A stretch of DNA of 64,000 nt, from the NCBI RefSeq assembly GCF_009650215.1, contig NZ_CP045851.1:496001-560000 (forward strand), read 5' to 3'. This document shows, piece by piece, positions 22,828 through 37,244 of this stretch (position 1 is the first letter of the stretch; each line of letters opens with the position of its first letter). The DNA comes from Actinomarinicola tropica (GTDB lineage Bacteria; Actinomycetota; Acidimicrobiia; Acidimicrobiales; SKKL01). A model generated the notes under the pieces. The model made no database searches and was not told the origin of the DNA. It saw nothing but the letters and a program-made list of their open reading frames with translations. Position numbers and translations under genes: made by a program.

Positions 22828-23099
22828 ACGGCGTTGCCAGGCGCGCTTGCGAGCCGCGCGGAATCCTGGTCAGGCGTCGGCTTCGCCGGCGTGTCCTGAG
22901 TCGAGCGGGACGTGTCGGCAGCAGCATCCGGGGAAGAGCCTGCAAGGCCGGACGACGTGACCACGGTTGACGACACACCGGCATTCCGCGCAACTGATCT
23001 CCACGCCCCCCATTGTGCGCACTTGATGTGCACGTGGGTAGCGGACCAGGTGGTCTCACGCCTGGTCGGCCATTCCCACCCTGCACCGGGAGCATTCCC
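22828..23099. other. gene-free region before the cargo operon
   Basis: No coding sequence was supported on either strand. A long minus-strand open frame here only translates the antisense of the tRNA remnant. The segment ends in the promoter of the operon at 23.1 kb. Confidence 0.6.
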
Positions 23100-23133
23100 T
23101 TGACAGGGATGTCGGAATATCCGACACTAGATG
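23100..23133 (+). promoter_or_regulatory. promoter with palindromic operator for the cargo operon
   Basis: A consensus -35 TTGACA stands at 23100-23105. Directly after it, TGTCGGA-ATA-TCCGACA (23110-23126) is a 7-bp inverted repeat. A weak -10 lies near 23123-23133 (ACACTAGAT). A repressor on the palindrome would occlude the promoter; the XRE protein encoded in the operon is the natural candidate. The palindrome covers the first possible ATG of the first gene, which argues for the downstream GTG start. Confidence 0.6.
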
Positions 23134-23135
23134 TC

Positions 23136-23504
23136 GTGAAGAGTGACATCGCTGCGCCGGGTGCGATCGCACCGCCGAAGCCGGCCGGTGCTGCGGCGCC
23201 GGCCGTCGATCCGCTCGCTGCGGTGCGCAGCCACTCGGTATCTGAGCTCGAGGCCGACCTAGGCAGCCTGCTGCGATCGGCGCAGCCATCCTGCCCCCTT
23301 CAGGAGAAGGCCCCGGACGGGAGCCCACGCGTGCCGAGTCTGATCTCGGTCTGGTTGATCAGCCAGGTGGGCAAGGCGGTCGGCCGACCGAAGCTCGTCA
23401 ACCTGTCCAAGGTGCGGCGCGACGATCTGCGGAGCCTCGGTGGTGTCGCTCGCGTCGTTCACCGGGCGTTGCACCCGGTGCCATCGGAGGCGAAGGCCTC
23501 GTGA
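23136..23504 (+). CDS. putative acyl-carrier-protein-like small protein
   Basis: First gene of the coupled cargo operon, 122 residues from the GTG at 23136; an ATG at 23109 would add nine residues but lies in the putative operator. After a proline/alanine-rich leader (~30 residues) come SVSELEADLGSLL (helix 1), a loop, SLISVWLISQVGKAVG (helix 2) and LRSLGGVARVVHRAL (last helix). That spacing recalls an acyl carrier protein, with the serine of PSLISV where ACPs have DSL. The canonical aspartate is replaced by proline. The phosphopantetheinyl transferase two genes on strengthens the idea. Its GTGA overlaps the next start. Confidence 0.45.
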   Translation: MKSDIAAPGAIAPPKPAGAAAPAVDPLAAVRSHSVSELEADLGSLLRSAQPSCPLQEKAPDGSPRVPSLISVWLISQVGKAVGRPKLVNLSKVRRDDLRSLGGVARVVHRALHPVPSEAKAS

Positions 23505-24376
23505 TCGCGTTGCCTACCGTCGCGTCGCTCAGCGAGGCCTGGGTGCTGGCCCTCGAACGAGTCGTCGGCGAACCCGGCGGTCGGCTCGTGCATCTCGCGG
23601 CCACGGTCACCGACGCGGGCGCCGAGATTCCCGCGATTCGGCATGTGCTCGACGACGCGCTCGAAGCGGCGGGCTCACAGAGCGTCGACACGGTCGCGGA
23701 GACCATCTTCCCCACGTCGCTGTACCCCGACCCCGGCTACGACTGGTTGCCGGGGATCTCCGAGGACAAGGAGGCCGAGCTCAACGCGGCCGCCGACACG
23801 CTCTACGCCAGCTACATCGACATGCTGCCCGTGCTGCTCACCGCCTCAGGGAACAGCCGCGGCACCTACTTCGCCCGCATGGTCACCTGGCCGGGCAAGA
23901 CCGCCGGCGGCGTCAACCAGCTCGCCTCGCGGGTCGTTGCGCTGCGCAGCGAGCACAACGCCGGCCGGCGGCGCAACAACACCATCGACATCGATGTCGC
24001 CGCCGACGCGGTCTCCGACGACGATGCCGAACCGCGTGGTCTGCAGGTCTATGCAGCCACCGACAACCGCCGACGCGGCTTCCCCTGCCTCACCCACGTC
24101 GACCTCACCCTGCACGACGGCCAGCTCAACCTGCTCGCCGTCTACCGCCACCAGTACCTGATCGACAAGGCGTACGGGAACATGGTGGGCCTGTCCCGGC
24201 TGCTCGGCTTCTTGTGTCAACAGACCGGCTACGCACCCGGCGAGCTGGTGGTGCACGCCACCATGGCCGACGCCCAACGCCGCGACTTCCCGGCCGGTGG
24301 GCAGCTCGCCGAGGCCGCCCGTTCCGCCCTCGACAACTCGTCTGCACCTCACGACCCGCACGCGAAATCGACATGA
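23501..24376 (+). CDS. thymidylate-synthase-like protein
   Basis: A 291-residue protein whose C-terminal half resembles the thymidylate synthase fold. RGFPCLTHVDLTLHDGQLN (Cys196) matches the catalytic PCH loop and the following strand; YRHQYLIDKAYGNMVG matches the QRSxDxxLGxPFN segment, with Asn227 at the position that selects dUMP over dCMP; QQTGYAPGELVVHA matches the next helix and strand. The His/Tyr pair usually found just after (GDxHxY) reads MADAQR, so the active site is modified. Related enzymes make dTMP or hydroxymethyl-dUMP. With MazG and the HMUDK-like gene nearby, pyrimidine nucleotide modification is inferred. GTG start overlaps the previous stop. Confidence 0.7.
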   Translation: MIALPTVASLSEAWVLALERVVGEPGGRLVHLAATVTDAGAEIPAIRHVLDDALEAAGSQSVDTVAETIFPTSLYPDPGYDWLPGISEDKEAELNAAADTLYASYIDMLPVLLTASGNSRGTYFARMVTWPGKTAGGVNQLASRVVALRSEHNAGRRRNNTIDIDVAADAVSDDDAEPRGLQVYAATDNRRRGFPCLTHVDLTLHDGQLNLLAVYRHQYLIDKAYGNMVGLSRLLGFLCQQTGYAPGELVVHATMADAQRRDFPAGGQLAEAARSALDNSSAPHDPHAKST

Positions 24377-24846
24377 CCAGTTCGCCGCTGGCCGCCATCC
24401 GGTCCGCCTGGAGCGCCGTCGCCGGCGACGACGGGATGACCGGCGGCGTCGGCATCGATCTCGTCGAGACCAAGACGCTCGAGGAACTGATCGCGGCCGG
24501 CGGCCAGGCGTTCGTCGACTCGGCGTGGTCCACAACTGAACAGCACGACGCCGAGGGAAGCATCGAACGGCTCGCCACCCGGTGGGCAGCCAAGGAAGCG
24601 GTCATGAAGGCACTGCGATGCGGACTCGGCGACCTCGAACCACTCGACATCGAGATCCACACCGGCACCGACGGTGCACCCGACATCGTCCTCCACGGCA
24701 ACGCCCGACACGCAGCATCAACACGCGGACTGCACAGCTGGCACATCTCCATGTGCCACGAACAGGGCTGGGCCGTCGCCATCGCCATCGCCGGGCGCAC
24801 CCTCCCCGAACCCGGACAGAGACCCGAAGGGACCGACCATGACTGA
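24373..24846 (+). CDS. 4'-phosphopantetheinyl transferase (AcpS-type)
   Basis: A 157-residue protein with both AcpS/PPTase signatures: GVGIDLVETKTLEE near residue 25 (Mg-binding Asp) and RWAAKEAVMKALR near residue 72 (Glu and Lys). HISMCHEQGWAVAIAIA near the end matches the last conserved strand. It transfers phosphopantetheine from CoA to the serine of a carrier protein. A dedicated PPTase implies a carrier in the system, and the small first gene of the operon is the only candidate nearby. ATGA overlap with the TS-like gene and overlap with the XRE gene show tight translational coupling. Confidence 0.82.
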   Translation: MTSSPLAAIRSAWSAVAGDDGMTGGVGIDLVETKTLEELIAAGGQAFVDSAWSTTEQHDAEGSIERLATRWAAKEAVMKALRCGLGDLEPLDIEIHTGTDGAPDIVLHGNARHAASTRGLHSWHISMCHEQGWAVAIAIAGRTLPEPGQRPEGTDHD

Positions 24847-25273
24847 CCAGGCCCAAGCCGGCGACAGCCGCGACCCGACCCGAGAACGCGACACCGACGA
24901 CGCCGAGCAGGAACAGCTCGGCGCACGACTCAAGGAGGCACGGGAGTACGTCGGGCTCCTCCAGGAGGACGTCGCCGGCGCGCTCGGCATCCCCCGCACC
25001 AGCGTGCACGCCATCGAGGCAGGCAAGCGCAAGGTCACCGGCCTCGAGCTCCGCCGCCTGGCGCGCCTCTACCGGCGACCAGTCGGATGGCTGCTCGGCG
25101 AGGAGGAGATCGAGCTCAACGACGCCGAACCACTGTTCCGAGCGACCGCCGCGCTGTCGGAGGAGGACAAGGAGCAGGTGCTGCGCTTCGCCGAGTTCCT
25201 CGCTGCCGCCGGTAAGCCCGGCACCGCGGGGCGACAGGCCCGCCGCGGAGCCGCCGCAACGGAAGCGACCTAG
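24839..25273 (+). CDS. XRE-family helix-turn-helix regulator
   Basis: A 144-residue protein. After a charged ~30-residue leader comes a Cro/C1-type HTH: LGARLKEAREYVGLLQEDVAGALGIPRTSVHAIEAGKRKVTG split over helices 1-4, followed by LRRLARLYRRPVGWLLG. XRE genes directly before an ImmA gene are a recurrent pair in mobile elements, where the protease cleaves the repressor on induction. Its probable target is the inverted repeat at 23110-23126. The start overlaps the PPTase stop; the ImmA gene follows after five bases. Confidence 0.88.
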   Translation: MTDQAQAGDSRDPTRERDTDDAEQEQLGARLKEAREYVGLLQEDVAGALGIPRTSVHAIEAGKRKVTGLELRRLARLYRRPVGWLLGEEEIELNDAEPLFRATAALSEEDKEQVLRFAEFLAAAGKPGTAGRQARRGAAATEAT

Positions 25274-25278
25274 ATCCC

Positions 25279-26640
25279 ATGGCAACCGGCGGAGGACGGT
25301 GGAACCGTCGTATCCAGGCCGCAGAGTCGGCCGGGCGGCTCCTCGCGGAGCTCGACGTGAACCCGGCAACCCAGGTCGACGTGTTCGGGATGTGCGAGGA
25401 CCTCGGGCTGTGGCTGGCGTTCCTGCCGATGGACAAGCTCCTCGGGGCCTTCATCCCCGAGGGCGCCGGCGGCGTCCTTGTCACCACCCAGCGGCCCATC
25501 CCGATCCAGCGCTACACCGCCGCCCACGAGATCGGCCACTGGCGCCTCGACCACGGCCACGGGATCGCCCTTGACGGCGAGGAACACGTGCTCGGCGCCA
25601 CCGCGGTGGAGCGCGAGCAACTCGCCCAAATCTTCGCCGGCAGCCTCCTCATGCCACCGCCGCTGGTGTTCGGGGTGCTCGACCGACTCGACGCCACCGG
25701 CACCAGCCTCGATCCCCACCACGCCTATGCCGTGGCACGGGAGGCGGGTGTCAGCTACGAGGCTGCCGTGCGCCAGCTCACCCACCTCGAGGTGATCACC
25801 GCCGACCACGCCGTCGAGCTCCGCCGGCACCGCCCCTTGCAGATCAAGGCCGACCTCGCCCTGGGCCGGCGACCCGTCAACGGCTACGCCGACGTGTGGC
25901 CGGTGAACGAGCTCTGGGACGACATGCTCCTCTCCGTTCGAGTCGAGGACGAGGTCGTGATCTCGCTACCCGAGAACCGCAGCACCGGCTATCGCTGGAT
26001 GTTCCCTAGCGAGCACTCGCCGCCAGAAGTCACCACGCCGCCCCCGAACCTGCGCACGCACCAGATCCAGCCGCCCGACGCCACTCAGATCGCGGCCCTG
26101 CGCGACCAGTTCGCCCTCGCGTCACCACCGGACCGTCCGGCCCGCGCTCCCGGAGTGGTGCTCGACCGGCTCCGTACCGTCGCCGGCCCCGCCCCCCGCC
26201 CGCTCCCATCAGCGGCCGGCGCTGATGTCGTCGGCGACGGGTACGTCCCGGCCCGCACCGGATGGCTGCCCGCCCGACGGGCGCGCCGGCAGCGACTCGC
26301 CCGGCACGCCCCGACCCCACCGGACGAGATCACCAGCGCGCCGGTCGTGGCGGGCACCGGTCGGCGGGTCCTCAGCGTGCGGTTCCCCCGGCCCGGACCG
26401 GCAACGCTGCGGCTGCAATACCGGAGCCCGTACAGCGACACCGAACCCGCCAGCGACTATGTCCTGCACGCCCTGGTCGAACCCCGACACGTCGGGTTCT
26501 CCATCGACCAACTGGCCGAGGACGTCGACGAACCCTGGATCGCACGGGCCCGCCAGCGTCAGCTCGAACGACCATCGGACCCCATCGACGACGTCCCCGA
26601 CGAGGGGGAGACCCCCGGCGACGAGGACAGCTCGGTCTGA
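25279..26640 (+). CDS. ImmA/IrrE-like metalloprotease fused to a chagasin-type (I42) inhibitor domain
   Basis: A 453-residue protein. Residues 1-180 are an ImmA/IrrE domain: AAHEIGHWRLDHG gives the HExxH zinc site at 83-87 and EREQLAQIFAGSLLMP the third ligand. The C-terminal part looks like a chagasin (I42) cysteine-protease inhibitor: ISLPENRSTGYRW (229-240) fits the NPTTGYxW loop, and VVAGTGRRVLSVRF then LRLQYRSPYSD (356-386) fits the second half with the Y-x-RPW loop. About 100 proline-rich residues are inserted between the halves. The next gene is a papain-like protease, the kind of enzyme chagasins inhibit. ImmA calls are firm; the inhibitor domain is motif-based. Confidence 0.8.
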   Translation: MATGGGRWNRRIQAAESAGRLLAELDVNPATQVDVFGMCEDLGLWLAFLPMDKLLGAFIPEGAGGVLVTTQRPIPIQRYTAAHEIGHWRLDHGHGIALDGEEHVLGATAVEREQLAQIFAGSLLMPPPLVFGVLDRLDATGTSLDPHHAYAVAREAGVSYEAAVRQLTHLEVITADHAVELRRHRPLQIKADLALGRRPVNGYADVWPVNELWDDMLLSVRVEDEVVISLPENRSTGYRWMFPSEHSPPEVTTPPPNLRTHQIQPPDATQIAALRDQFALASPPDRPARAPGVVLDRLRTVAGPAPRPLPSAAGADVVGDGYVPARTGWLPARRARRQRLARHAPTPPDEITSAPVVAGTGRRVLSVRFPRPGPATLRLQYRSPYSDTEPASDYVLHALVEPRHVGFSIDQLAEDVDEPWIARARQRQLERPSDPIDDVPDEGETPGDEDSSV

Positions 26641-26659
26641 GCACCGAGGCAAACCCGCG

Positions 26660-27385
26660 ATGACCCCCCATTCGACGCGCCGCGCGACCAGCCTCGCCCT
26701 CGGCCCCATCGACCTGCGCCACCTGCTGCCACCCGGGGTGCGCGACCAGGGCCCGCGACCGCTGTGCCTGCCGTTCACGGTCTCGGCCGTCCACGAAGCC
26801 GCCCGCGCCCAGCTCGCCGCAGGCGCTGAGATGCTGGCCGTCGAGCCGCTCTGGCAGCACTGCGTGCAGGCCGGCGTGGCCGGCCACAGCGGCACCACCC
26901 TGCACGCCGTCACCGACGCCGTCTCCTCGACCGGCCAGCCCACCGACGCCGTCTGGCCGTACAACAACACGCTCGGCGCCGGCACCGAACCGACCCCCGT
27001 CACCGCCGCCACCGCGAACTTCATGACCGTCGACGGGATCGAGGTCCCCCTCGTCCACGACGGCATCGAAGCCCCCATCGAAGCAGCCCTCGCCATCGGA
27101 CTCCCAGTGGTCCTCGTCGTCGAGCTCACCGACCAGTTCGACCAACCCGCCGCCGACGGCGAGATCGATCTCCCACCGCTCACCGCGCCGGTCAGCGACT
27201 ACCACGCAGTGCTCGCTGTCGGCGCCGCCACCAACCCTGCCGGCACGACCCGACGGCTGCTCATCCGCAACTCGTGGGGACCGGGCTGGGGAGCCGGCGG
27301 CTACGGCTGGCTGCCCTACGACTACCTCGTCGCCTTCGCCGTCCAGGCTGGCGTCGCCGACCCCAGCACCCTCGCAACCCGATGA
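26660..27385 (+). CDS. papain-like (C1) cysteine protease
   Basis: A small papain-fold protease of 241 residues. GVRDQGPRPLCLPFT supplies the oxyanion Gln30 and nucleophile Cys36, SDYHAVLAVG the His182, and IRNSWGPGWGAGGYGWLPYDY the Asn204 with the typical C-terminal GxxGY region. All four catalytic positions are present. There is no signal peptide or obvious propeptide, so it should act in the cytoplasm, which is unusual for the family. A cytoplasmic protease would need control, and the chagasin-like domain encoded just upstream is a plausible inhibitor. Coupled by ATGA to the MazG gene. Confidence 0.83.
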   Translation: MTPHSTRRATSLALGPIDLRHLLPPGVRDQGPRPLCLPFTVSAVHEAARAQLAAGAEMLAVEPLWQHCVQAGVAGHSGTTLHAVTDAVSSTGQPTDAVWPYNNTLGAGTEPTPVTAATANFMTVDGIEVPLVHDGIEAPIEAALAIGLPVVLVVELTDQFDQPAADGEIDLPPLTAPVSDYHAVLAVGAATNPAGTTRRLLIRNSWGPGWGAGGYGWLPYDYLVAFAVQAGVADPSTLATR

Positions 27386-28317
27386 CCACGCTCGAACCGC
27401 AATCCGAGGACGAACCCATGGACCTGACCAGCTACCAGGAGCTGTCCGCCCGCACCGACATCCTCACCGCCGATGACCCGCTGATGCCGCTGCTCGGCCT
27501 CGCCGGCGAGGTCGGCCAGCTCATCGCCGAGTACAAGAAACGCCAACGCGACCGGCAGGGCTACCGGGCCTTCGAGGACGAGGTCAGCGAAGAGCTCGGC
27601 GACATCCTCTGGTACGCCGCAGCCTTGGCTCGCCACAACGGCCTCGACCTCGGCGAGATCGCCCGCGCCAACCTGGCCAAGACTCACGACCTGTTCCGCT
27701 CCGGCACCGAGCTCCCGGGCCAGGACCCCTTCGATGCGGGCCTACCCGATGGGCAGCGATTCCCCGACCAGCTCACGGTCACCCTCGTCGAGACGGAGGA
27801 GACCTCCAAGCACGGCGAACGCCTCCAACGGGTGCGGATGTACGCGGGCGACTCGCCCGTCGGCGACCCCCTCGACGACAACAGCGAACACGACGACGAC
27901 TACCGCTACCACGACGTGTTCCACCTCGCGCACATGGCCGTGCTCGGCTGGTCGCCGGTCATGCGACGCCTGCTGGACCGCAAGCGATCGAACCAACCGT
28001 CGGTCGACCGGATCCAAGACGGCGGCCGCGCCGCCGCCATCGAAGAAGGCTTGACCGCGTACGTGTTCACGATGGCCGACGCCCACTCCTACTTCGCCAA
28101 CCTGCAACACGTCCCGCCCAGCATCATCAAGACCTGCGCCAAGATGACCGCCCACCTCGAGGTCTCCGCTCGCTCTCTGGCCGACTGGCACCAGGCCGTG
28201 ATCGCCGGCTACGACGCCTTCCGCAACGTGGTCGCTCACCGGGGCGGCACTCTCACGGCTGACCTGAACCGCCGCACCCTCACCTACGACGCACCGCCCC
28301 GCGGATCGGATCGCTAG
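27382..28317 (+). CDS. MazG-like nucleotide pyrophosphohydrolase with C-terminal extension
   Basis: A 311-residue protein. Residues ~30-105 form a MazG-type all-alpha NTP pyrophosphohydrolase: LLGLAGEVGQLIAEYKK has the first acidic helix and EELGDILWYAAALARHNG the second (ExxD). The remaining ~200 residues form a helical extension with YRYHDVFHLAHMAVLGWSP and AYVFTMADAHSYF, similar to the MazG C-terminal domain reported with DNA base hypermodification genes. MazG enzymes remove pyrophosphate from (d)NTPs, which in phage pathways clears or supplies nucleotides for modified DNA. The stop overlaps the opposite-strand gene by four bases. Confidence 0.8.
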   Translation: MTTLEPQSEDEPMDLTSYQELSARTDILTADDPLMPLLGLAGEVGQLIAEYKKRQRDRQGYRAFEDEVSEELGDILWYAAALARHNGLDLGEIARANLAKTHDLFRSGTELPGQDPFDAGLPDGQRFPDQLTVTLVETEETSKHGERLQRVRMYAGDSPVGDPLDDNSEHDDDYRYHDVFHLAHMAVLGWSPVMRRLLDRKRSNQPSVDRIQDGGRAAAIEEGLTAYVFTMADAHSYFANLQHVPPSIIKTCAKMTAHLEVSARSLADWHQAVIAGYDAFRNVVAHRGGTLTADLNRRTLTYDAPPRGSDR

Positions 28318-29297
28318 ACAGCCTCGAGCGCCGGGGCAATGGTGTTCGTCGGCAGACCCCACTTCGGCGGGAAGAACGGCTCGGGCAGCGCACCGAGGGG
28401 CCGAAAGGTCTGCTTGATGCGGGTGCGGCCGGCCACGCCCGCCACCTCGGGGTGGGCGACCCGGGCGTACTTGCTGATCTCGCAGAACAGGTTCTGCACA
28501 TCGATCAGGTGCAGACGTCGCCCGAACAGCCCCGAGAACGCCAGCCCGAAGTGCTCGAACCAGCGGTCCTGGTCCTCGGTGAGCGCCCGGATCACCTCGG
28601 CCGCCCGGCGCAGGTTCATGCCCGGGAACACCTTCGACAACCCGTCGAGCGCACCGGGACCGGCGACGACGAACTCGTCCTCGTCGTGATCCACCACGGG
28701 GCTGTAGCAGAGGTCGATGGCCAGCTGATACGCGAGGAAGTCACCTAGTCCCGGCACGCAGTGCAACACCCCGAAGAGGTCCCGGAGATCGGCGGTCGAC
28801 TCGATCCGCTCGGTGAGGCCGTCTTCGACGAGGTCGACGGCGAGCTGGAGGTGGCCGGCGTGCTTGGGGGCCGGCCAGCCGGGTCGCGGCGGGATGATGT
28901 AGGCGCTGGAGTAGATGCGGCGCCCCTCGGACCGGGCGCGCGCCAACACTCGGTCGGCGGCGACGGGATCGAACGATCCCAGCGACGGTGGCCCCACCTC
29001 ACCGGCGAGCAGCTCCCAGGTGTCGATCTTGTTGAACAGCCGGAACAACACGACCCGGAAGACGACCTCGGCGACATCGTCGTCGGCGTCGCCGGCGTAG
29101 ATCACGTCGCGGATGAGGTACTGGCTGACGCGGTCCGAGGCACGGAACGCGTTCGTGAACCGGTACTCGCCGAGGACCGGATCGTCGGTCCATGGTGCGG
29201 GCAGGCCGGCCAAGCGCCGTTGGTACATCGCGTGCCGCTCGGCCGCGAACCGCCAGAACGACTCGAACACCGGACTTGGGTCGGGAAGGCGGCTCAT
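28314..29297 (-). CDS. 5-hmdU kinase helical-domain / thymine-pyrophosphorylase-like protein
   Basis: A 327-residue protein of the family often named 'nucleotide kinase domain' or alpha-glutamyl/putrescinyl thymine pyrophosphorylase. Diagnostic segments are FWRFAAERHAMYQRR, PWTDDPVLGEYRFTNAFR and DRVSQYLIRDVIY at the N terminus, GLGDFLAYQLAIDLCYS in the middle, and DVQNLFCEISKYAR at the end. These proteins are associated with thymidine hypermodification in phages. The ATG at 29297 (MSRLPDPSP) is chosen over an in-frame upstream start. It converges on the MazG gene (stops share CTAG) but is co-directional with the integrase, 75 bases downstream of it. Confidence 0.78.
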   Translation of the reverse strand: MSRLPDPSPVFESFWRFAAERHAMYQRRLAGLPAPWTDDPVLGEYRFTNAFRASDRVSQYLIRDVIYAGDADDDVAEVVFRVVLFRLFNKIDTWELLAGEVGPPSLGSFDPVAADRVLARARSEGRRIYSSAYIIPPRPGWPAPKHAGHLQLAVDLVEDGLTERIESTADLRDLFGVLHCVPGLGDFLAYQLAIDLCYSPVVDHDEDEFVVAGPGALDGLSKVFPGMNLRRAAEVIRALTEDQDRWFEHFGLAFSGLFGRRLHLIDVQNLFCEISKYARVAHPEVAGVAGRTRIKQTFRPLGALPEPFFPPKWGLPTNTIAPALEAV

Positions 29298-29372
29298 CTC
29301 ACCGCAGTCTGGCGCCGGGCCCGACCCGCGACGCGGACCCGCGCGCAACCCGCCGACGCGGCGCTCGTGGCG

Positions 29373-30566
29373 TCACGCGTCACCTCCCTGGCCAACGGGT
29401 CCCTCGTCGGCATCCGAGCTGTCCGACTCTGCCTCGTCGTCGCGGCCGAACATGAGGTCGGCGATCTGGTCGGCGGCGTCGTCCTCGGCGGCGGGGATGG
29501 CGTGCATGTAGACGTCCATGGTGAACGAGGTCGTGGCGTGACCGAGCCGGTCCGAGATGATCTTGACCGGCACCCCGGCGCTGAGACCCAGCGTGGCGTG
29601 GGTGTGGCGAAGATCGTGCAGGCGGATCTTGGGCAGCTCGAGGCGCTTCACGGTGCGGTCGAAGGTCTGGGAGAAGTAGTCGGGATGGATCGGGCTGCCG
29701 TCGGGGCGGGCGAACACGAGGTCCTGGTCCCGGTAGCCGTCGCCGAGCAGGTGCCGCTCGCGTCGCTGCGCGGCCCGGTGGGCGCGCAGCACCTCGAGGG
29801 TGCCGACGTCGAGGGAGATCTTGCGTTCCCCGCGGCGGGTCTTGGGTTGGCCGACGGTCACCTGGTAGTTCACCGACAGGATCGTCTGGCGGACGTGCAG
29901 CCGGCGGGCCGGGAAGTTGATGTCGCTCCAGCGCACGCCGAGCACCTCCCCGCGGCGCATCCCGGTGGTGGCCGCCAGCAGGTAGGCGGGGGCCAGGCGG
30001 TGCCCGGCGATGCCATCGAAGAACACCCGCAGCTGGGCCGGGGTCCAGGTCTTCATCTCCTCGCCGTTGGCCCGGGCCAGCTTGGGCGGGTCGGCCGCGT
30101 CGGCGGCGTTGCGGGGCACGAGGTTCTTGCGCACGGCGTCGCGCAGCGCCTTGTGGAGCAGGGCGTGGATGTTGCGGACCGTCTTGGCCGACAGGCCCGA
30201 GGCGACGAGATCGGCGTAGAAGCGGTCGAGGCGGTCGGGGGAGAGCTGCTGGATCTGGATGTGGCCGAGCTCGGGTAGGACGTGGCAGTTGATCGCGGTC
30301 TGGTAGCTGGCGTAGGTGCTGGGCCGCAGCGACAGCTGGCGGGCGGGCAGCCACCGTTCGGTGAGGAAGTCGCCGACGGTGACTTTGGTCGGCTCGGCGA
30401 ACACGCCGCCTCGGAGGGCGGCCATGACATCGGTGAGGAAGTCCTGGGCTTCCTTCTTGGTGCGGAACCCGCCCTTGGAGTGGTGCTTGCGGCCCTCGGC
30501 GGTGTCGGTCCGCCACCGGACCGTCCATGTGTCGCCTCGCCGGTGAATGGATCCTCGTTGGCTCAT
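29373..30566 (-). CDS. tyrosine recombinase (site-specific integrase)
   Basis: A 397-residue phage-type integrase. It has an N-terminal arm-binding domain (RGSIHRRGDTWTVRWR), the SAM-like core-binding domain (~60-160), and the catalytic domain with Arg in TTGMRRGEVLGVRW, HxxR in LHDLRHTHATLGL, and the second His plus nucleophile Tyr in LGHATTSFTMDVYMHA. All catalytic residues are present, so it should be active. It overlaps the upstream excisionase gene by four bases. It is the likely agent of insertion at the tRNA-Met site 6.7 kb away, with cargo sitting between. Confidence 0.93.
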   Translation of the reverse strand: MSQRGSIHRRGDTWTVRWRTDTAEGRKHHSKGGFRTKKEAQDFLTDVMAALRGGVFAEPTKVTVGDFLTERWLPARQLSLRPSTYASYQTAINCHVLPELGHIQIQQLSPDRLDRFYADLVASGLSAKTVRNIHALLHKALRDAVRKNLVPRNAADAADPPKLARANGEEMKTWTPAQLRVFFDGIAGHRLAPAYLLAATTGMRRGEVLGVRWSDINFPARRLHVRQTILSVNYQVTVGQPKTRRGERKISLDVGTLEVLRAHRAAQRRERHLLGDGYRDQDLVFARPDGSPIHPDYFSQTFDRTVKRLELPKIRLHDLRHTHATLGLSAGVPVKIISDRLGHATTSFTMDVYMHAIPAAEDDAADQIADLMFGRDDEAESDSSDADEGPVGQGGDA

Positions 30567-30967
30567 GATCGGCCCCCGGTGCGGTTCGGCCGCGACGCGG
30601 CCTGCCTGCTGTCGTGGGCCAACTCGGGCCGAGCCACCAGCCGAAGCGTCGGGCTCTCGTCGGTGCCGTCGGCGGTGGGGTCATCACCGTAGAGGTCGTC
30701 GAGTCCAGAATCTTGCGCGCCGGGGTCGAGGAGTCGCCGCAGCGCGGCGGTCGGGACACGGATGAGTCGACCGACGCGGATGACCGGCACCGGAAAAGTC
30801 CCTTCCTTGATGGCCCGGTAGCCGGTGGTGCGGTCGATGCCGAGCTCGGCGAAGGCCTCATCGGCGGTCACGCAGGCCCGGGCCGACGGGTCCGGGATCA
30901 CGAGCCCGGCTCCGGGCGGGTCGGCGGCGGGCCGGCGGTCGGTCGCGCTGCTTGCATGCCGACTCAC
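30563..30967 (-). CDS. excisionase-like MerR-type HTH protein
   Basis: A 134-residue protein with a winged-helix excisionase core: TADEAFAELGIDRTTGYRAIKEGTFPVPVIRVGRLIRVPTAALRRLL divided over the HTH and wing. The remaining C terminus is acidic and probably disordered. Excisionases bend attachment-site DNA and set the direction of integrase action. The gene overlaps the integrase start, the standard xis-int order of actinobacterial ICEs. It may bind the GCGAAC repeats near the att site. Confidence 0.82.
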   Translation of the reverse strand: MSRHASSATDRRPAADPPGAGLVIPDPSARACVTADEAFAELGIDRTTGYRAIKEGTFPVPVIRVGRLIRVPTAALRRLLDPGAQDSGLDDLYGDDPTADGTDESPTLRLVARPELAHDSRQAASRPNRTGGRS

Positions 30968-31028
30968 TCACCGGCGACGACCGCCCGCCGCCACAACCCA
31001 CGCATCCACGGCGCGGCCGGTTGGCCGT

Positions 31029-31682
31029 CTACTGGCGGGTGTACACGGTGACCGGTTGGGCGCCGTCGGGCAGCGGGAGGCTGATCGTCTCGTCCAGCTG
31101 GAGGTCGATCTTGCGGGAGCCGCCGGTCAGACAGCGGTGCAGCTCGCGGGTGGCGGCGTTGAGCGCGTCGATGGCGTTGCCCGGCCAGCGCCGAGCGAGC
31201 TCATCGAGGAGCGCATCGCCCGCGTAGCGGTGCGCGATGAGCACGCGCAGATCGACATCGCCGACCCTCGTGGTGTCGGGCCGGCTGAGACTGCCGAACA
31301 GCTCGATCGACTCGACCCAGAACAGCTGGCCCGGATCGCCGTTCACCTCCCCGGCTCGTTCGATGACACCGGCGAGCAGCGCTTCCGCTCTTGCACGTGG
31401 CATGGGCGTGCCGATCCGGGCCTTGGCCAGGGCGCTTCCGGCGATCGTGTTCTGCCACAGCACGGCTTCGTCGACGAGCTCGCCGTCGCCGTGGACCAGC
31501 GGCGCGGTGTGCCGCTCGGCGCCGGACTCGACCAGCCCGTGGTGCGCCAGCATCCCCAACACCTCGGCCGGGTCGCGATCGGTGCCGTCGAGCAGCGCGG
31601 CGAACCCCTCAGCGGTGAACAACTTGCCGGCCAAGCGGCGCAGCAGGTCGCGCACCTCGACGGCCTCGAGGTCGCCGATCAT
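31029..31682 (-). CDS. nucleotidyltransferase-domain protein
   Basis: A 217-residue protein. The N-terminal half looks like a small winged helix (AVEVRDLLRRLAGKLFTAEGF, EVLGMLAHHGLVESG). The C-terminal half has the pol-beta-type minimal nucleotidyltransferase signature ELFGSLSRPDT followed by DVDLRVLIAHR (GS and DxD). HTH-nucleotidyltransferase proteins are common in mobile elements; some are antitoxin or defence partners, others are orphan regulators. No HEPN partner is seen next to it. The ATG at 31682 is chosen; an in-frame GTG about 30 bases upstream is possible. It is transcribed toward the excisionase. Confidence 0.7.
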   Translation of the reverse strand: MIGDLEAVEVRDLLRRLAGKLFTAEGFAALLDGTDRDPAEVLGMLAHHGLVESGAERHTAPLVHGDGELVDEAVLWQNTIAGSALAKARIGTPMPRARAEALLAGVIERAGEVNGDPGQLFWVESIELFGSLSRPDTTRVGDVDLRVLIAHRYAGDALLDELARRWPGNAIDALNAATRELHRCLTGGSRKIDLQLDETISLPLPDGAQPVTVYTRQ

Positions 31683-31757
31683 CTGGCCCCGGGCGATCAA
31701 CACGGCGTCATTGTCGCCGGCCGCGCCCGGCCACCGCACCGGAGGCGCTCGCTGGCC

Positions 31758-31930
31758 GTGCCGTGGCCGCCCCGCGGGCGGGTGCCGTGTCCCGCCTGCG
31801 GCGGGGTGCCGTGTGGGCCGCCGCCGTCGCCGTGTCAAGCCCCTCCGCAAGCTCCGGGGCCGAGCCCTTCGGGTTGACACGGCGCCGGGCCGGCGGCCCA
31901 GCCCGCCCGTAGGGCGGAGTCCCGGCCGAC
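31758..31930 (+). repeat. structured intergenic repeat module, copy 1
   Basis: It begins with GTGCCGTGG-type units and ends with a fold shared by copies 2 and 3. An outer stem pairs GGCCGCCG (31816-31823) with CGGCGGCC (31891-31898). An inner stem pairs GTGTCAA (31832) with TTGACAC (31874-31880) around AGCCCTTCGGG. A 3' hairpin CCGCCC-GTA-GGGCGG lies at 31903-31917. It stands about 110 bases before the 102-residue gene and ParB. Confidence 0.7.
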
Positions 31931-32028
31931 GGGCAGGGACTACATCACCGAGGTGTTCGAGGCCGGCGACGAGGTGCCGGCCAACGTGGCCACCGCACCC
32001 GGCATCCGAACGAGAGGCCCATCTGTTG

Positions 32029-32337
32029 GTGAACCGACCTGAACCTGTGGCGACGTGCGTGGCGCCGGGCACCCAGCCCGTTCTGTTCCATCTGCCCTCC
32101 GGGCGTGTCCCCACCTACGTGGTGATCGACCGGCGCGGCCAGGAGCAGGTGCGCACGTCGTCGCTCGGGGTGGCGGTCACGGCCGCGCGTCGGGTGCTGG
32201 CCGAACAGGGCGAGGTGTGGATCCGTGCGTCGGACGCCACCTGTGCCCACATCGACCCGCACCGGGTCGCCACGGACACGCCGTCGTGCCCGTGGATCCA
32301 GACCATTGCTGCGACCTTGGAGGTAGCACCGTCATGA
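32029..32337 (+). CDS. small hypothetical protein upstream of parB-like gene
   Basis: A 102-residue protein read from GTG 32029 (VNRPEPVATC); a TTG one codon upstream is an alternative, and GAGAGG 12 bases upstream could be the ribosome binding site. It contains PVLFHLPSGRVPTYVVIDRRG and SLGVAVTAARRVLAEQGEVW, suggestive of a small alpha/beta fold. No family was recognised. Its stop overlaps the ParB-like start (ATGA), so the two are translated together and probably share a role in maintenance of the element. Confidence 0.6.
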   Translation: MNRPEPVATCVAPGTQPVLFHLPSGRVPTYVVIDRRGQEQVRTSSLGVAVTAARRVLAEQGEVWIRASDATCAHIDPHRVATDTPSCPWIQTIAATLEVAPS

Positions 32338-33782
32338 CCACCACCGACCCCACCCACAACATCGACACGGGCGACGACATGATGTCGGGCGAACCGGAGC
32401 TGTGTTGGCTCAACCTCGCCGACCTCGCCGCCCACCCCGACAACCCGCGCACCTCGCTGGGCGACCTGACCGAACTGGTCCGCTCGATCCGCGCCCACGG
32501 CATCCTCGAACCGCTCGTCGTGCTCCCCGCAGACACCGACGGCGTCTACCGGATCATCGCCGGGCACCGCCGCCACGCGGCGGGCCTCAAGGCCGGGGTC
32601 AGCGACGTGCCCGCCGTGGTCCGACCCATGAGCCCGGCCGAGGTGATCGAGGCCATGCTCAGCGAGAACGTCAACCGCTCCGACCTCACCGTCGCCGAGG
32701 AGGTCCGGGCCATCGAGCGGCTCATGTCCCTCGACGACGGCCTCACCCCGGCCAAGCTGTGCAAGCGCATCGGCCGCTCCCAAGCCTGGGTGCGGTCCCG
32801 CATGGCCGTCACCATCCTCCCGGCCCGCTGGCGCACCGCGCTCGACACCGGCGACCTCACCCTCGCCGCCGGCGAAGCCGCCGCCACCGTCGCCGACCTC
32901 GGCCCCGACCACCTCGACGCCGTCTGCGACCAACTCGCACAGAGCCGCTGGGGCGACCCCGTCCGAGTGGTGGCCAACTACCGCGACGACCTGCGCCGCG
33001 CCGAGGCCTACCAGCGTGCCCTCGACAAGGCCCAGGCGAGCGGCGATCGGGTCTTCACTAGCGAGGACCCCGCCCCCGACAAGGCCAAGCGCCTCGGCGA
33101 GCTCTTCGACCCCGACGGCTGCACCGCCCATCGCGGCGAGCCGTGCCACGCCGTCGTCGTGCGCCGCACCGGCTGGGGCGACGGCTACGAACGCGCCGAG
33201 GTGTGCACCGACCCCCGCCGCCACGCCCCCAACCGGGTCGGCACCGCCACCGGCAGCGACCTGGCCACCGACCGCATCCCCACCCGGCACCGGTCCGGCA
33301 GCGGCGACGACTCCCACGCCAAGCGCGCCGGTCGCCTCGCCCGTCTCGCCCACGCCGCTGACACCTTCGCCAAGGCCAGAGGCGGGTTCGGTCAGACCGA
33401 CCTCACCCGGGTCGCGCTGCGAGGACTGATCCTCGAGGCCGGACGCGACGCCGTCGTGTTCGCGGCCACGATGCTCGGCCACGACGAACCCCGCGACGTG
33501 ACCGCCACCGCGCTGCTCGACGGCGTCGACAGTCCGGCCGGGCTTGCCAGGGTGGCGGGGGCTGTCGCCCTCGGTCAGGCGGAGTCCCGCATGTACTGGT
33601 CCCCCGCCAGCGAGCAGTGCCGCGACTACCTCGGGCTGCTCACCGGATCGGGCTGGACGCCCGACGACTGGACCGCCGCTGCCCTCGCCGCTGCACCCGC
33701 CGACCACGGACCTGACGACGAGGACGGTCCCCTCGGCGACGGCGACGACGCGGTCGACGAGGACGCCGACCTCGCCGGCTGA
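32334..33782 (+). CDS. ParB/RepB-like DNA-binding nuclease-fold protein
   Basis: A 482-residue protein with an N-terminal ParB domain: LNLADLAAHPDNPR, SIRAHGILEPLVVLP and YRIIAGHRRHAAGLKAG, where GHRRHAAG replaces the usual GERRxRA CTP-binding box. A following HTH region includes ENVNRSDLTVAEEVRAIERL and KLCKRIGRSQAWVRSRM. The C-terminal 250 residues are less conserved, contain several cysteines (CTAHRGEPCHA, VCTDPRRH) and end acidic. ParB-like proteins on ICEs serve partition or gene regulation; no ParA is next to it, which favours regulation or an accessory role. Confidence 0.83.
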   Translation: MTTTDPTHNIDTGDDMMSGEPELCWLNLADLAAHPDNPRTSLGDLTELVRSIRAHGILEPLVVLPADTDGVYRIIAGHRRHAAGLKAGVSDVPAVVRPMSPAEVIEAMLSENVNRSDLTVAEEVRAIERLMSLDDGLTPAKLCKRIGRSQAWVRSRMAVTILPARWRTALDTGDLTLAAGEAAATVADLGPDHLDAVCDQLAQSRWGDPVRVVANYRDDLRRAEAYQRALDKAQASGDRVFTSEDPAPDKAKRLGELFDPDGCTAHRGEPCHAVVVRRTGWGDGYERAEVCTDPRRHAPNRVGTATGSDLATDRIPTRHRSGSGDDSHAKRAGRLARLAHAADTFAKARGGFGQTDLTRVALRGLILEAGRDAVVFAATMLGHDEPRDVTATALLDGVDSPAGLARVAGAVALGQAESRMYWSPASEQCRDYLGLLTGSGWTPDDWTAAALAAAPADHGPDDEDGPLGDGDDAVDEDADLAG

Positions 33783-33793
33783 CTCTCGTAGTC

Positions 33794-33831
33794 GACGGCC
33801 CGGGCATCCCCGACGGGACGGCCGGGCCGTC
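33794..33831 (+). terminator. hairpin terminator after parB-like gene
   Basis: GACGGCCCGG and CCGGGCCGTC form a perfect 10-bp stem with an 18-base loop, starting 12 bases after the stop. No U-run follows, as is usual in this GC-rich background. Confidence 0.55.
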
Positions 33832-33928
33832 CGCGTTCTGCCTTGAGAACGACTTTCAGCGGTCGGGAGTGATCTCGGGACGAACTCCGGGACCGGGTTG
33901 TGCTGGGGCGGACCATTCGGCGCGTCTG

Positions 33929-34095
33929 GTGCCGTGGCCGCCTTGCGGGCGGGTGCCGTGACCCGCCTGCGGCGGGGGTGCCGTGTGGGCCGTCACCGCC
34001 GCTCGTGTCAAGCCCCTCGCGAGCTCGGGGCCAAGCCCTTCGGGTTGACACGGCGTCGCCGCCGGCCCGGCGCCCGTAGGGCGAAGCCCGGCCAC
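33929..34095 (+). repeat. structured intergenic repeat module, copy 2
   Basis: Same layout as copy 1: GTGCCGTG units, an outer stem GGGCCG (33987-33992) with CGGCCC (34063-34068), the inner stem GTGTCAA (34005) with TTGACAC (34045-34051), and a 3' hairpin CGCCC-GTA-GGGCG (34071-34083) followed by AAGCCCGGCC. The next start codon is ~108 bases after this hairpin. Confidence 0.72.
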
Positions 34096-34190
34096 CCGGT
34101 CGGGCACGACATCCAGCCCTCGGGGGCGAGGTCGGTCGGGGAAGCCGCCGGACCCCTGGGGCTGGGTCACCCGACCCCCAAGGAGCCCCG

Positions 34191-34646
34191 ATGACCACCA
34201 CCCCCACCACCGAGCACACCGCCACCGAGCCCACGGACGACCGCGACGGGCGCGAGCCGCTGCGCAGCGCGGCCGACACCGTGACCGTGATCGCCTGGCA
34301 CGACCCCATCGTCGACACCGCAACCGGCGCCATCGCAACCGACAGCGACGACGCCCTCGTCTGGTACACGCCCTCGATCGGCACCATCGGCATGGCCATG
34401 GCCCACCGCTTCGCCCGCCACGCCGCCGACGGCCCTTCCACCTGGACCATCGAGGACATCGCCCGCACCTTCGGCCTCGGCCCCTCCGCCCCCCGGGTGC
34501 TGCGCAGCCTCGAGCGCCTGGAGCGCTTCGGGATCATCCGCCGCCACGGCACCACCATCGCCGTGCGCCTCTGGCTGGCACCGCTCACCTACCGGCAGCG
34601 CTGCGGGCTCCCGGCCTACCTGGCCGCCGCCTACGACGCCCGCTGA
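34191..34646 (+). CDS. winged-helix-like hypothetical ICE protein
   Basis: A 151-residue protein. After an acidic disordered leader (~35 residues) it has VWYTPSIGTIGMAMAHRFARHA and then TWTIEDIARTFGLGPSAPRVLRSLERLERFGIIRRHGTT, separated here as a probable winged-helix DNA-binding domain (helices plus a basic wing). This type of protein is often found beside WhiB in actinobacterial ICEs; a replication-initiation or regulatory role is possible. It is preceded by structured repeat copy 2, and AGGAG stands just before the ATG. The WhiB gene follows after six bases. Confidence 0.65.
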   Translation: MTTTPTTEHTATEPTDDRDGREPLRSAADTVTVIAWHDPIVDTATGAIATDSDDALVWYTPSIGTIGMAMAHRFARHAADGPSTWTIEDIARTFGLGPSAPRVLRSLERLERFGIIRRHGTTIAVRLWLAPLTYRQRCGLPAYLAAAYDAR

Positions 34647-34652
34647 TCCGCC

Positions 34653-35084
34653 ATGACCGCCGGCCCGGCGGCCTGGCGCGCCCAGGCCGCCTGCCGCGGC
34701 ACCGACCCGGCCCTGTTCTATGACCCCCACCCGGCCGCGGTCGCCGCGGCCAAGACCGTATGCGCCAGCTGCCCGGTCCGGGACGCCTGCGCCGCCCACG
34801 CCATCGCGGCCGGGGAGGAGTACGGCGTCTGGGGCGGACTCGCCGCTGACGAACGCCCCGCCCCTCAACCTCAACGCGAGCCGGCACCGGGACCGGCGCC
34901 GCGCATCAGCGACGACGAGCTCTACGACCTGCTCATCGATGCCGACCCCGACCGGGCCGCCCTCGATCAGCTCCTCGACCACCGCTGGCTCCCCACCGCT
35001 ACCGCCTACAAGGCCCTCGAACGTGCCGTGCGCCTCGGCGTCGTCGAGCGTCGCGGCCGCGCCCTGTTCCCCACCCGCCACTGA
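34653..35084 (+). CDS. WhiB-family iron-sulfur transcription factor
   Basis: A 143-residue WhiB-like protein. Four cysteines at 14, 37, 40 and 46 (ACRGTDP, CASCPVRDAC) form the [4Fe-4S] site; GVWGG at 58-62 is the invariant turn. The usual basic C-terminal arm is replaced by a longer tail with a second helical region (DDELYDLLIDAD, ALERAVRLGVVERRG) that looks like a winged helix. WhiB proteins are restricted to Actinobacteria and their phages and respond to redox or NO, so the element may sense host stress. Confidence 0.9.
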   Translation: MTAGPAAWRAQAACRGTDPALFYDPHPAAVAAAKTVCASCPVRDACAAHAIAAGEEYGVWGGLAADERPAPQPQREPAPGPAPRISDDELYDLLIDADPDRAALDQLLDHRWLPTATAYKALERAVRLGVVERRGRALFPTRH

Positions 35085-35115
35085 CCCGACCAGCTCGCCT
35101 TGTGCGGGGCGGGGT

Positions 35116-35272
35116 GTGCCGTGGCACCGGCCCGGTGGGCCGGTGGTGCCGTGTCGCCCGCCGCCGCACCGCTGTCAAGCCCCTCCGCAAGCTCCGGGGC
35201 CGAGCCCTTCGGGTTGACAGCGGCGCTCAGGGCGGCGGGCCAGAGCGCCCCGTAGGGGCGAAGCCCGCCCAA
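35116..35272 (+). repeat. structured intergenic repeat module, copy 3
   Basis: Outer stem GCCCGCCGCC (35156-35165) with GGCGGCGGGC (35231-35240), ten pairs. The inner stem is CTGTCAA (35172) with TTGACAG (35214-35220): the first pair is C-G where copies 1 and 2 have G-C, a compensatory change. 3' hairpin CGCCCC-GTA-GGGGCG at 35246-35260. The ArdC-like gene begins 33 bases later. Confidence 0.75.
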
Positions 35273-35292
35273 CCAGACCGAAGGGAACCGCC

Positions 35293-36225
35293 ATGCACGC
35301 CGAGGACCTGTTCGCCCAGATCACCGACCAACTCATCGCCGACATCGAGACCGGCGCCGCCGGCCAGTGGCGCATGCCCTGGCACACCCTCGCCGATGCC
35401 GGCACCCCCACCAGCGTCGACGGCCGCCCCTACCGCGGCGCCAACGCCCTGTGGCTCGCCATGGTCGCCACCGCCCGCAACTGGACCTCGGGCACCTGGG
35501 CCACCTACCGGGCCTGGCAGCGCCACGGCGCCCAGGTCCGCCGCGGCGAGAAGGCCACCCAGGTCATCCTCTGGAAGCCCGTCACCCCCAAGCCCACCGA
35601 CACCAACGACGACGACACCGCCAGCGACCGGACACCCCGGCCCCAGCTGCTCGCCCGCGCCTACGCCGTGTTCGCCGCCGAGCAATGCGACGGCGCGGAG
35701 GAGATCATCGCCCGCCGCACCCACGACCTCGCCCGGCGCGACACCCCCGAGCGGATCGCCGACGCGGAGGACTACTTCGCGGCCATCGCCGCCACCGTCA
35801 TCGAGGGCGGCAACCGGGCCTGCTACCAGCCCGCCACCGACACCATCCACCTGCCCGCCCTCGAAGCCTTCGATACCGCCGCCCACTACTACGGCACCCG
35901 CGCCCACGAGACCGTCCACTGGACCGGCCACCACAGCCGGCTCGCCCGCGACCTCACCGGCCGCTTCGGCACCGACAGCTACGCCGCCGAGGAGCTCGTC
36001 GCCGAGCTCGGCGCCGCCATGTGGTGCGCCCAGGCCGGCCTGTCCGCCGTCACCCGCACCGACCACGCCGCCTACCTCGCCGGCTGGCTGCGCATCCTCC
36101 GCACCGACGCCCGAGCCCTGATCACCGTAGCCAGCCGGGCCCAAGCCGCCGTCGACCACCTCAACACCCTCGCCGGTCACCACACCAGCGACACCAACGC
36201 CGACGACGACGAGGCCGCCGCCTGA
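35293..36225 (+). CDS. ArdC-like antirestriction / zincin protein
   Basis: A 310-residue protein with the ArdC layout. The N-terminal ssDNA-binding domain shows GQWRMPWHTL, GRPYRGANALWLAM and YRAWQRHGAQVRRGEKAT, and the C-terminal zincin domain has RAHETVHWTGH (HExxH at 205-209) followed by ELVAELGAAMWC, which supplies the third ligand. ArdC proteins protect incoming plasmid ssDNA and inhibit restriction enzymes, fitting an element that enters cells as single-stranded DNA. It directly follows structured repeat copy 3. Confidence 0.87.
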   Translation: MHAEDLFAQITDQLIADIETGAAGQWRMPWHTLADAGTPTSVDGRPYRGANALWLAMVATARNWTSGTWATYRAWQRHGAQVRRGEKATQVILWKPVTPKPTDTNDDDTASDRTPRPQLLARAYAVFAAEQCDGAEEIIARRTHDLARRDTPERIADAEDYFAAIAATVIEGGNRACYQPATDTIHLPALEAFDTAAHYYGTRAHETVHWTGHHSRLARDLTGRFGTDSYAAEELVAELGAAMWCAQAGLSAVTRTDHAAYLAGWLRILRTDARALITVASRAQAAVDHLNTLAGHHTSDTNADDDEAAA

Positions 36226-36312
36226 ACCGCCAGACCCGGAAACGCCAGCGTGCGCCGCACGCAACGCCACCGGCCACCGGGCGGCCTCCGCCATCCCGGT
36301 CGGCCGGCGGGT

Positions 36313-36345
36313 GTGCCGTGGCCGCCCTGCGGGCGGGTGCCGTCG
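36313..36345 (+). repeat. partial structured repeat module, copy 4 (head only)
   Basis: Only the head unit is kept: GTGCCGTGGCCGCC then TGCGGGCGGGTGCCGT. It matches the beginning of copies 1 and 2 nearly base for base; the stem-loop body is missing. It lies 64 bases before the gene at 36409. Confidence 0.6.
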
Positions 36346-36408
36346 GCCAGACAACCCGAGACAACCCGCTTCGTACCGTCGCGAGCCATCCGACCAGGAG
36401 GCTCACCC

Positions 36409-36942
36409 ATGCGCAGACGACGCCACCATCCCGACGCCACGCCCCCAACCGCCCGCCAACCCGACGGACCCGGCGAGCCGGTCTACGACTGGAACCGGTA
36501 CGGACGGCACCGCCTCCGCGCCCCCGACGGCGCCATCATCGAGCTCCCCATCCCCGTCGACGCCGCCCACACCGTGTGGGTCGCCACCACCTGGCCCGAC
36601 CCCACCGTCACCGGAGGATGGGCTCGCCAACTGTGGGCGGCCGACCCCACCGCCGGTCGAGGCTGGCAGCTCCCGCACCAGCTCGCCGCCGGCGACATCG
36701 TCGAGTTCGGCGCCGACGGCCCCACCGGTCCCCGCCGCTGGTACGGGATCATGGACAGCTACGAGGTCGACCGGTGGGCCACCCTCCAAGGCCCCTACCC
36801 CCATCCCGCCGCCGCCCACGACGCCGCCCAGCAGCTCCTCGCCGTAGAGCGCTACGTCCCGCCCCTCGAACCCGACCCAAGTCCCAACCCCTGCCGACGC
36901 ACGCCGCGGCAGCGCCGACCCCGCCACCACCGGCCCCGCTGA
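36409..36942 (+). CDS. hypothetical ICE protein, 177 residues
   Basis: Basic at both ends (MRRRRHHPD; RRTPRQRRPRHHRPR) with a central region of about 120 residues: VYDWNRYGRHRLRAPDGA, ELPIPVDAAHTVWV and LAAGDIVEFGADGPTGPRRWYG. No family was recognised. The sequence could be a small beta-rich domain. AGGAGG 11 bases before the ATG supports the start. Its place between ArdC-like and a HTH gene of the element suggests an accessory function in mobility or replication. Confidence 0.6.
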   Translation: MRRRRHHPDATPPTARQPDGPGEPVYDWNRYGRHRLRAPDGAIIELPIPVDAAHTVWVATTWPDPTVTGGWARQLWAADPTAGRGWQLPHQLAAGDIVEFGADGPTGPRRWYGIMDSYEVDRWATLQGPYPHPAAAHDAAQQLLAVERYVPPLEPDPSPNPCRRTPRQRRPRHHRPR

Positions 36943-36973
36943 CCCGTAAGACGTCACACAGCCCGCAACTGCC

Positions 36974-37159
36974 GTGACCGCCATGGCCACGGCCACTGAC
37001 CAGCCCCTCATGCCCGCCGCCGAGGCCGCCGAACGGCTCGAGCTCACCCTCGCCCAGCTCTGCCGGCTCATCGACCGAGGCGAGCTCCACGCCTACCGCG
37101 ACGACCGCTCCTACCTCCACGTCCCCGTCGCCGAGGTCGAAGCCCTCGCCACCGGGTAG
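36974..37159 (+). CDS. small excisionase-like HTH protein
   Basis: A 61-residue MerR/excisionase-type DNA-binding protein: AAEAAERLELTLAQLCRLIDRGELHAYRD gives the HTH and turn, SYLHVPVAEVEAL the wing and last helix. Similar proteins are encoded as a second Xis or as a regulator of ICE transfer genes. The gene is 31 bases after the previous one on the same strand. An ATG three codons in (MATATDQ) is an equally good start. Confidence 0.72.
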   Translation: MTAMATATDQPLMPAAEAAERLELTLAQLCRLIDRGELHAYRDDRSYLHVPVAEVEALATG

Positions 37160-37244
37160 CCCCCCCAGCCTGGACGCCCCAGGCCGCCGCAACCCCAGCC
37201 GGCTTGGCCCGCCCCCCGCAGACCGTGGATCCGGACCCCGCCGT

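Follow-up and report, generated by a model that had tools for sequence, protein, structure and literature searches.

What is known of chagasin-type inhibitors comes mostly from parasite or free-standing proteins, and what they do in bacteria is obscure. Relatives of the metalloprotease ImmA, namely PprI and CapP, are triggered by ssDNA or damage, and to our knowledge activation by ssDNA is known for these relatives only. The loops of chagasin (L2, L4, and L6) are defined by the motifs NPTTG, GXGG, and RPW/F, respectively (PMC2607524). Among systems that modify DNA building blocks, the main text of the DefensePredictor study presents the TS, dNMP kinase, 5-hmdU kinase, and NMAD systems as validated against phage in E. 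coli and the aGPT-Pplase, MazG, and MazG-C systems as predictions of the program (PMC13092281). No paper in the literature searched joins chagasin with ImmA or with the operon described below.

The window, i.e., the whole stretch of 64,000 nucleotides of Actinomarinicola tropica that was analyzed (contig NZ_CP045851.1, positions 496,001 to 560,000), contains a fusion of ImmA to a chagasin (I42) domain, followed by a papain-like protease gene. The gene order is carrier-like protein, thymidylate synthase (TS)-like enzyme, PPTase, XRE repressor, ImmA-I42, papain, and MazG plus MazG_C, with a convergent HMUDK_hel gene at the end:

23109..23504, + strand: carrier-protein-like small protein with an invariant Ser in VPSLISVW (17 homologues; hhalign)
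23501..24376, + strand: TS-like enzyme with invariant Cys196 and Asn227 (TIGR03283; 28-sequence alignment)
24373..24846, + strand: AcpS-type 4'-phosphopantetheinyl transferase (PPTase) (PF01648, 1.7e-14)
24839..25273, + strand: XRE repressor, CapH-like (PADLOC capH, 9e-14)
25279..26640, + strand: ImmA (M78 metalloprotease) with a C-terminal chagasin (I42) domain, 453 aa (Pfam, alignment, and AlphaFold2)
26660..27385, + strand: papain-like C1 protease without a propeptide, 241 aa (Pfam C1; profile against 3ois)
27382..28317, + strand: MazG plus MazG_C (PF18722, 1.3e-67; PF03819, 2.7e-05)
28314..29348, - strand: HMUDK_hel (5-hmdU DNA kinase helical domain) protein (PF18723, 2.3e-97)

With chagasin/ICP (MEROPS I42), the I42 domains of the module share the Ig-like fold and loops L2, L4, and L6, and NPSTG and RPW persist in distant members of the module. 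Unlike chagasin/ICP, they are fused C-terminally to an M78 protease, are cytoplasmic, and have their presumptive cognate enzyme encoded by the next gene, and the window copy has in addition a 100-aa insertion and RSPYSD as its L6. As in CapH/CapP, ImmR/ImmA, and IrrE/PprI, an XRE gene is followed by an M78 protease with HExxH...E intact (PADLOC capP, 1.1e-15), but in the module this protease bears I42 and lies in a nucleotide-modification/papain operon. PADLOC matched only the CapH/CapP regulators and no CBASS core among the seven proteins of the window operon that were scanned. The systems in the main text of DefensePredictor (PMC13092281) share TS-like, thymidylate kinase plus HMUDK_hel, and MazG/MazG_C domains with the module, which differs from them, as they are described there, in having XRE-ImmA/I42, papain, carrier protein, and PPTase. 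The HMUDK_hel fold is shared, as a moderate likeness, with phage thymidine hypermodification enzymes (PaMx11 gp46 PUGT and 5-hmdU DNA kinase), but the module, known here from genes and models, is an operon that lies on a chromosome or mobile element and includes a regulatory switch. Work by Iyer (2013) and Burroughs (2015) reportedly may describe parts of the TS/MazG/HMUDK neighborhood, and the novelty of the wider operon is therefore uncertain. The parts are known in kind, and what appears to be new is an ImmA-chagasin fusion that would cage an adjacent papain. The diDNase islands (PMC11706625) were considered for comparison and rejected, as they carry cargo different from that of this operon.

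The M78 half of the 453-aa protein is N terminal and the I42 half is C terminal, and both are above the Pfam gathering cutoffs (Peptidase_M78, 7.9e-07; Inhibitor_I42, 3.3e-08, with 34.2 bits against a curated cutoff of 27.2). Both domains were also matched in all 46 complete fusion homologues scanned, and the HExxH site (H83/E84/H87) and E113 are invariant in the alignment of 46 homologues. A profile of the fusion family matches solved chagasin/ICP structures (2wgn, 1.3e-11; 2cio, 5.6e-10; 2nqd, 4.9e-09) and also those of IrrE/PprI/CapP. The AlphaFold2 model, made from the 46-sequence alignment, has a mean pLDDT of 83.5, with I42 strands mostly at 90 or above. Its best match in the PDB is chagasin 2h7w (TM score of 0.84 over the length of chagasin, spanning an insertion of ∼100 residues), and the other half of the model matches CapP, IrrE, and PprI. 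Membership in the chagasin family was judged by the Pfam cutoff and by an Ig-like fold with L2, L4, and L6 at one end; the window protein passes the former and is predicted to have the latter. Chance likeness of the loops to chagasin is ruled out by the 46/46 Pfam matches, the family profile, and chagasin as the top fold.

These results agree with a first-pass annotation of the same DNA, whose two open reading frames, 25279-26640 and 26660-27385, are present at those positions. Its reading of the RSTGYRW and RSPYSD segments as chagasin loops L2 and L6 holds under the published loop definitions (PMC2607524), with L6 diverged in the window. The fold of the fusion C terminus had been set beforehand as the refuting test, and the AlphaFold2 prediction is I42, with chagasin 2h7w at the top. 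The complete Gln-Cys-His-Asn papain site without a signal peptide that was read next door is borne out by the conservation of its residues and by the 35 residues before Cys, and the same fusion, for which a search elsewhere had been proposed, was found in several phyla.

The 241-aa neighbor matches Peptidase_C1 (PF00112, 1.7e-06) above the gathering cutoff. Its catalytic set is complete, with Gln30 (position 26747), Cys36 (26765), His182 (27203), and Asn204 (27269). Conservation extends across phyla: among 44 homologues, Cys, His, and Asn never vary, and a single sequence departs from Gln. The closest solved relative of the family is cysteine protease 3ois (profile match of 3e-27), with mite allergens and cathepsins next; unlike 3ois, module papains lack a propeptide and are encoded behind an inhibitor gene. 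Only 35 residues lie ahead of the catalytic Cys in the window papain and 19 to 47 in module papains generally, which is too few for a propeptide or signal peptide. In 10 other papains of the same phylum, the domain begins 40 to 111 residues into the open reading frame (start codons as called), and none of these has an I42 or ImmA neighbor within the 2 to 4 kb examined. A papain without a propeptide would be active on translation, and an external inhibitor is therefore plausible.

The fusion alignment, run against 84,980 species genomes, gave 56 loci. The ImmA-I42 fusion was identified in approximately 50 loci from Actinomycetota, Bacillota, Pseudomonadota, and Chloroflexota, plus one in a Verrucomicrobiota bin that falls within an actinobacterial clade of the tree and may be misbinned. 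Among the organisms that carry it are Acidimicrobiia, Streptomyces, Kribbella, Brevibacterium, Arthrobacter, Mycobacterium, Halobacillus, Neobacillus, Pleionea, Kangiellaceae, alphaproteobacteria, and Chloroflexota. Isolates from several phyla rule out a lone fusion or a metagenome assembly artifact. The same scan returned ImmA proteins of ∼455 aa with another C-terminal part (L061 to L065), from Lachnospiraceae, Adlercreutzia, and others. The module is rare in sampled genomes, being present in 6 of 296 from the class of the window organism, 4 of 386 from its phylum (TS-like seed), 2 of 299 from the Halobacillus class, and 1 of 274 from the Kangiellaceae class (the last two being samples with their centers counted).

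All 56 module loci contain XRE, ImmA, and the TS-like enzyme; 51 of them have I42, 49 have papain, 47 have HMUDK_hel, 40 have an AcpS-type PPTase, and 36 have MazG. Papain is present in 49 of the 51 I42-bearing module loci, and papain without I42 was never seen among module loci. The spacing between ImmA and papain was measured in 45 loci and is −14 to +24 bp in 44 of these. To guard against seed bias, the search was repeated with I42-independent seeds (TS-like, later HMUDK_hel) and a scan of viral contigs. These scans gave five modules without papain (L126; L128, module at 7145-11091; L141; L142; and L147, module at 6240-9960), and none of their five ImmA proteins has a Pfam I42 match or L2/L6 loops. 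The exception is a single lineage of Pseudonocardiales (L045/L047, 8989-10110), in which papain is gone but I42 stays, with SSGYVW/SNGYVW and RPW. Loss of the inhibitor loops accompanies absence of papain in two of three papain-less lineages. The association of the L2 loop with papain has a Fisher P value of 1.2e-4 when loci are treated as independent. The M78 tree has about three changes for papain and two for I42; with so few independent events, significance is out of reach, and we therefore take the co-loss as directional support rather than proof. The ImmA C termini of L128, L142, and L147 carry a short segment starting with AVDVEVGDLI that resembles the first I42 strands without loops.

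Joint loss and synteny support a dedicated inhibitor-protease pair. The first-pass annotation had proposed an enzyme-inhibitor pair of toxin-antitoxin type, and adjacency and the partial co-loss of papain and loops favor the pairing itself; the two-component picture is too narrow, because the pair sits in a larger conserved operon that this annotation missed. We consider it probable that the adjacent papain is the dedicated target of the I42 domain of ImmA, which would bind and inhibit it, within an XRE-ImmA-switched, nucleotide-modifying, and probably antiphage operon.

The same loci bear on a reversed arrangement, in which papain would do the sensing or regulating and ImmA would provide the output: papain docked on I42, which would serve for docking and not as an antidote, would keep ImmA inactive (or active), and a phage protein or ligand that displaces or inhibits papain would flip XRE. 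This would explain why a single chain always holds both inhibitor and metalloprotease, something that simple inhibition does not need, and it suits the retention of both active sites and the persistence of XRE-ImmA in papain-less modules whose loops are lost. Nevertheless, the strict catalytic conservation of papain exceeds what a mere ligand would need, and L045/L047 run without papain, so that we regard this arrangement as unlikely.

In the window, the module is carried by a mobile element:

23094..40187, no strand assigned: mobile element carrying the module (∼90 to 94% DNA identity to another genome; Pfam)
29373-30566, - strand: integrase (Pfam)
30563-30967, - strand: HTH_17, excisionase-like (Pfam)
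32334-33782: ParB (Pfam)
34653-35084: WhiB (Pfam)
35293-36225: ArdC, anti-restriction (Pfam)
37725-40187: TrwC relaxase (Pfam)

The stretch 23094-40132 is ∼94% identical in DNA (90 to 92% further right) to an element in an Acidimicrobiia genome of another family; the left flanks of the two are unlike, with a sharp boundary at 23094, and a simple search found no att repeat at 23094-40187. An Acuticoccus plasmid (NZ_CP133481.1; L103, 5167-10843) carries dCTP deaminase, carrier-like protein, XRE, ImmA-I42, C1 peptidase, TS-like enzyme, uracil-DNA glycosylase, and MazG; L060 likewise has a protein of the uracil-DNA glycosylase family in the module. Phage origin was considered and rejected, as a search of 50,697 phage records found nothing at the threshold applied. 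The ImmA seed brought up two IMG/VR contigs with an XRE-ImmA-TS module; the I42/papain pair is present on one (L125) and absent from the other. A papain search of IMG/VR returned generic papains only (23 to 33% identity).

Carriage by an integrase/TrwC element and by a plasmid would suit an operon that keeps the mobile element in place through a nucleotide-pool or addiction function rather than one that defends the host. However, the surroundings of the module differ between hosts, with type I or type IV restriction genes adjoining three loci (L010, L012, and L049), and related nucleotide-modification operons protect E. coli from phage according to the main text of the DefensePredictor study (PMC13092281). 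Element maintenance therefore seems to us quite unlikely, and because distant bacteria have the same arrangement, again next to enzymes for modifying DNA building blocks, the module is probably part of an unstudied phage defense system.

The remaining genes of the operon point to nucleotide chemistry. In the carrier-like protein, S70 of the aligned segment is invariant in 17 homologues and is a candidate for the phosphopantetheine Ser that carrier proteins have at the start of helix II; hhalign relates it to the carrier-type small proteins of distant modules (probability of 78; E value of 1.9e-05), two of which, as relatives of the window protein, pass the PF00550 (PP-binding) cutoff in the Pfam scan. 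The carrier-like protein of L128 has a GFDSLS motif. The TS-like protein matches TIGR03283 at 1.6e-11, which is under the curated cutoff of that model, and a profile match to TS in the PDB is at 4e-04. In some distant modules (L048), another PPTase replaces AcpS. The HMUDK_hel and MazG genes are convergent, and their ends overlap by 4 bp. The AlphaFold2 model of HMUDK_hel (pLDDT of 89) is matched best in VIA-align by the phage 5-PmdU glycinyltransferase PUGT (8z2n; Z score of 10.7 over 220 residues), a Z score near 10 being moderate evidence for helical folds, and then by a queuosine salvage enzyme and DNA glycosylases; Foldseek found nothing significant for this model, so that the likeness to PUGT and glycosylases comes from VIA-align only.

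Variation among modules involves similar enzymes. L039 to L044, L048, and L049 have a second family, related to canonical thymidylate synthase, beside the TS-like protein; canonical TS (PF00303) is added in L040 and thymidylate kinase in L048. L128 encodes a single protein made up of thymidylate kinase and HMUDK_hel, and the HMUDK protein of L147 is similarly long (564 aa).

In most loci, a carrier protein and PPTase accompany papain near TS-like and transferase-fold proteins, and the papain-fold enzyme could on these grounds be an acyl or aminoacyl transferase or a carrier-protein hydrolase of the modification pathway, tethered or limited by I42. Against this, papain-less modules retain the carrier protein, TS-like enzyme, and HMUDK_hel, from which it follows that papain is not essential to the modification pathway, and the nearest solved relatives of papain are proteases. 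A biosynthetic role for papain is, in our judgment, very unlikely.

How potent an inhibitor the window copy would be depends on its loops and its insertion:

25921..26481, + strand: I42 (chagasin) domain, aa 215-401, split by an insertion (AlphaFold2 strands; match to 2h7w)
25972..25998, + strand: L2 loop ENRSTGYRW, NPTTG type (alignment; motif roles per PMC2607524)
26005-26328, + strand: insertion of ∼100 aa within I42, aa 243-350 (AlphaFold2 model; homologue alignment)
26422..26439, + strand: L6 loop RSPYSD, diverged from RPW (homologue alignment)

The I42 strands of the model are residues 216-232, 239-241, 315-323, 361-368, 373-382, and 392-401, and distant homologues are without the insertion. 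L2 (N233-R-S-T-G237) lies inside ENRSTGYRW, which is close to invariant throughout the window clade; L4 is V356-V-A-G-T-G361 (hydrophobic residues plus GXG); and L6 is R382-S-P-Y-S-D387, a noncanonical loop. Distant members have canonical NPSTG/NPTTG and RPW loops, e.g., ENPSTGYKW...RRPW in Halobacillus. In chagasin, T31S, which gives an STG loop, retains a Ki of 11 pM, and W93A has a Ki of 31 pM against cruzipain (PMC2607524). Since both stay picomolar, an STG loop is able to inhibit and such changes need not end inhibition; the potency of the window domain is nonetheless uncertain and less sure than that of its canonical relatives, because RPW is gone and 100 aa are inserted. The least probable of the alternatives is that the window I42 is a relic scaffold that has lost inhibition, as the clade without L6 RPW and with the 100-aa insertion might suggest, given its near-invariant L2, its high-confidence predicted fold, and the papain still next door.

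Domains, catalytic residues, a predicted I42 fold, conserved gene order, partial co-loss, and mobility are direct observations on these sequences; we infer that I42 would bind and inhibit the papain, that ImmA would drive the switching and the release of papain, that papain would have a substrate, and that the operon would serve phage defense. Papain would be translated right after ImmA-I42, often by translational coupling, and would be active at once; the I42 domain would hold it as a preinhibited complex tethered to ImmA. By analogy with PprI/CapP, ImmA and XRE may form a CapP/CapH-like switch, in which infection or DNA damage (ssDNA) would activate ImmA, XRE would be cleaved, and the operon would be derepressed. 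Upon switching, papain might be freed or delivered as an effector or processing protease. The carrier protein with its PPTase, the TS-like enzyme, MazG, and the HMUDK_hel/glycosylase-fold protein may make or recognize a modified pyrimidine deoxynucleotide or base, and this branch most likely serves phage defense. It is possible, although doubtful, that the whole is a new prokaryotic immune switch, in which a repressor-cleaving metalloprotease carries an inhibitor that cages a constitutively active papain, so that one sensing event would both derepress the operon and release the effector, coupled to carrier-dependent synthesis or detection of hypermodified pyrimidines.

In the module, bacteria of several phyla pass on a chagasin-type inhibitor together with its likely target and a regulatory protease as a single unit. 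If the proposed pairing is correct, it would give bacterial I42 domains a defined function and add a new means by which a protease effector is caged, and the module would be a tractable multigene candidate for phage defense via nucleotide or base modification.
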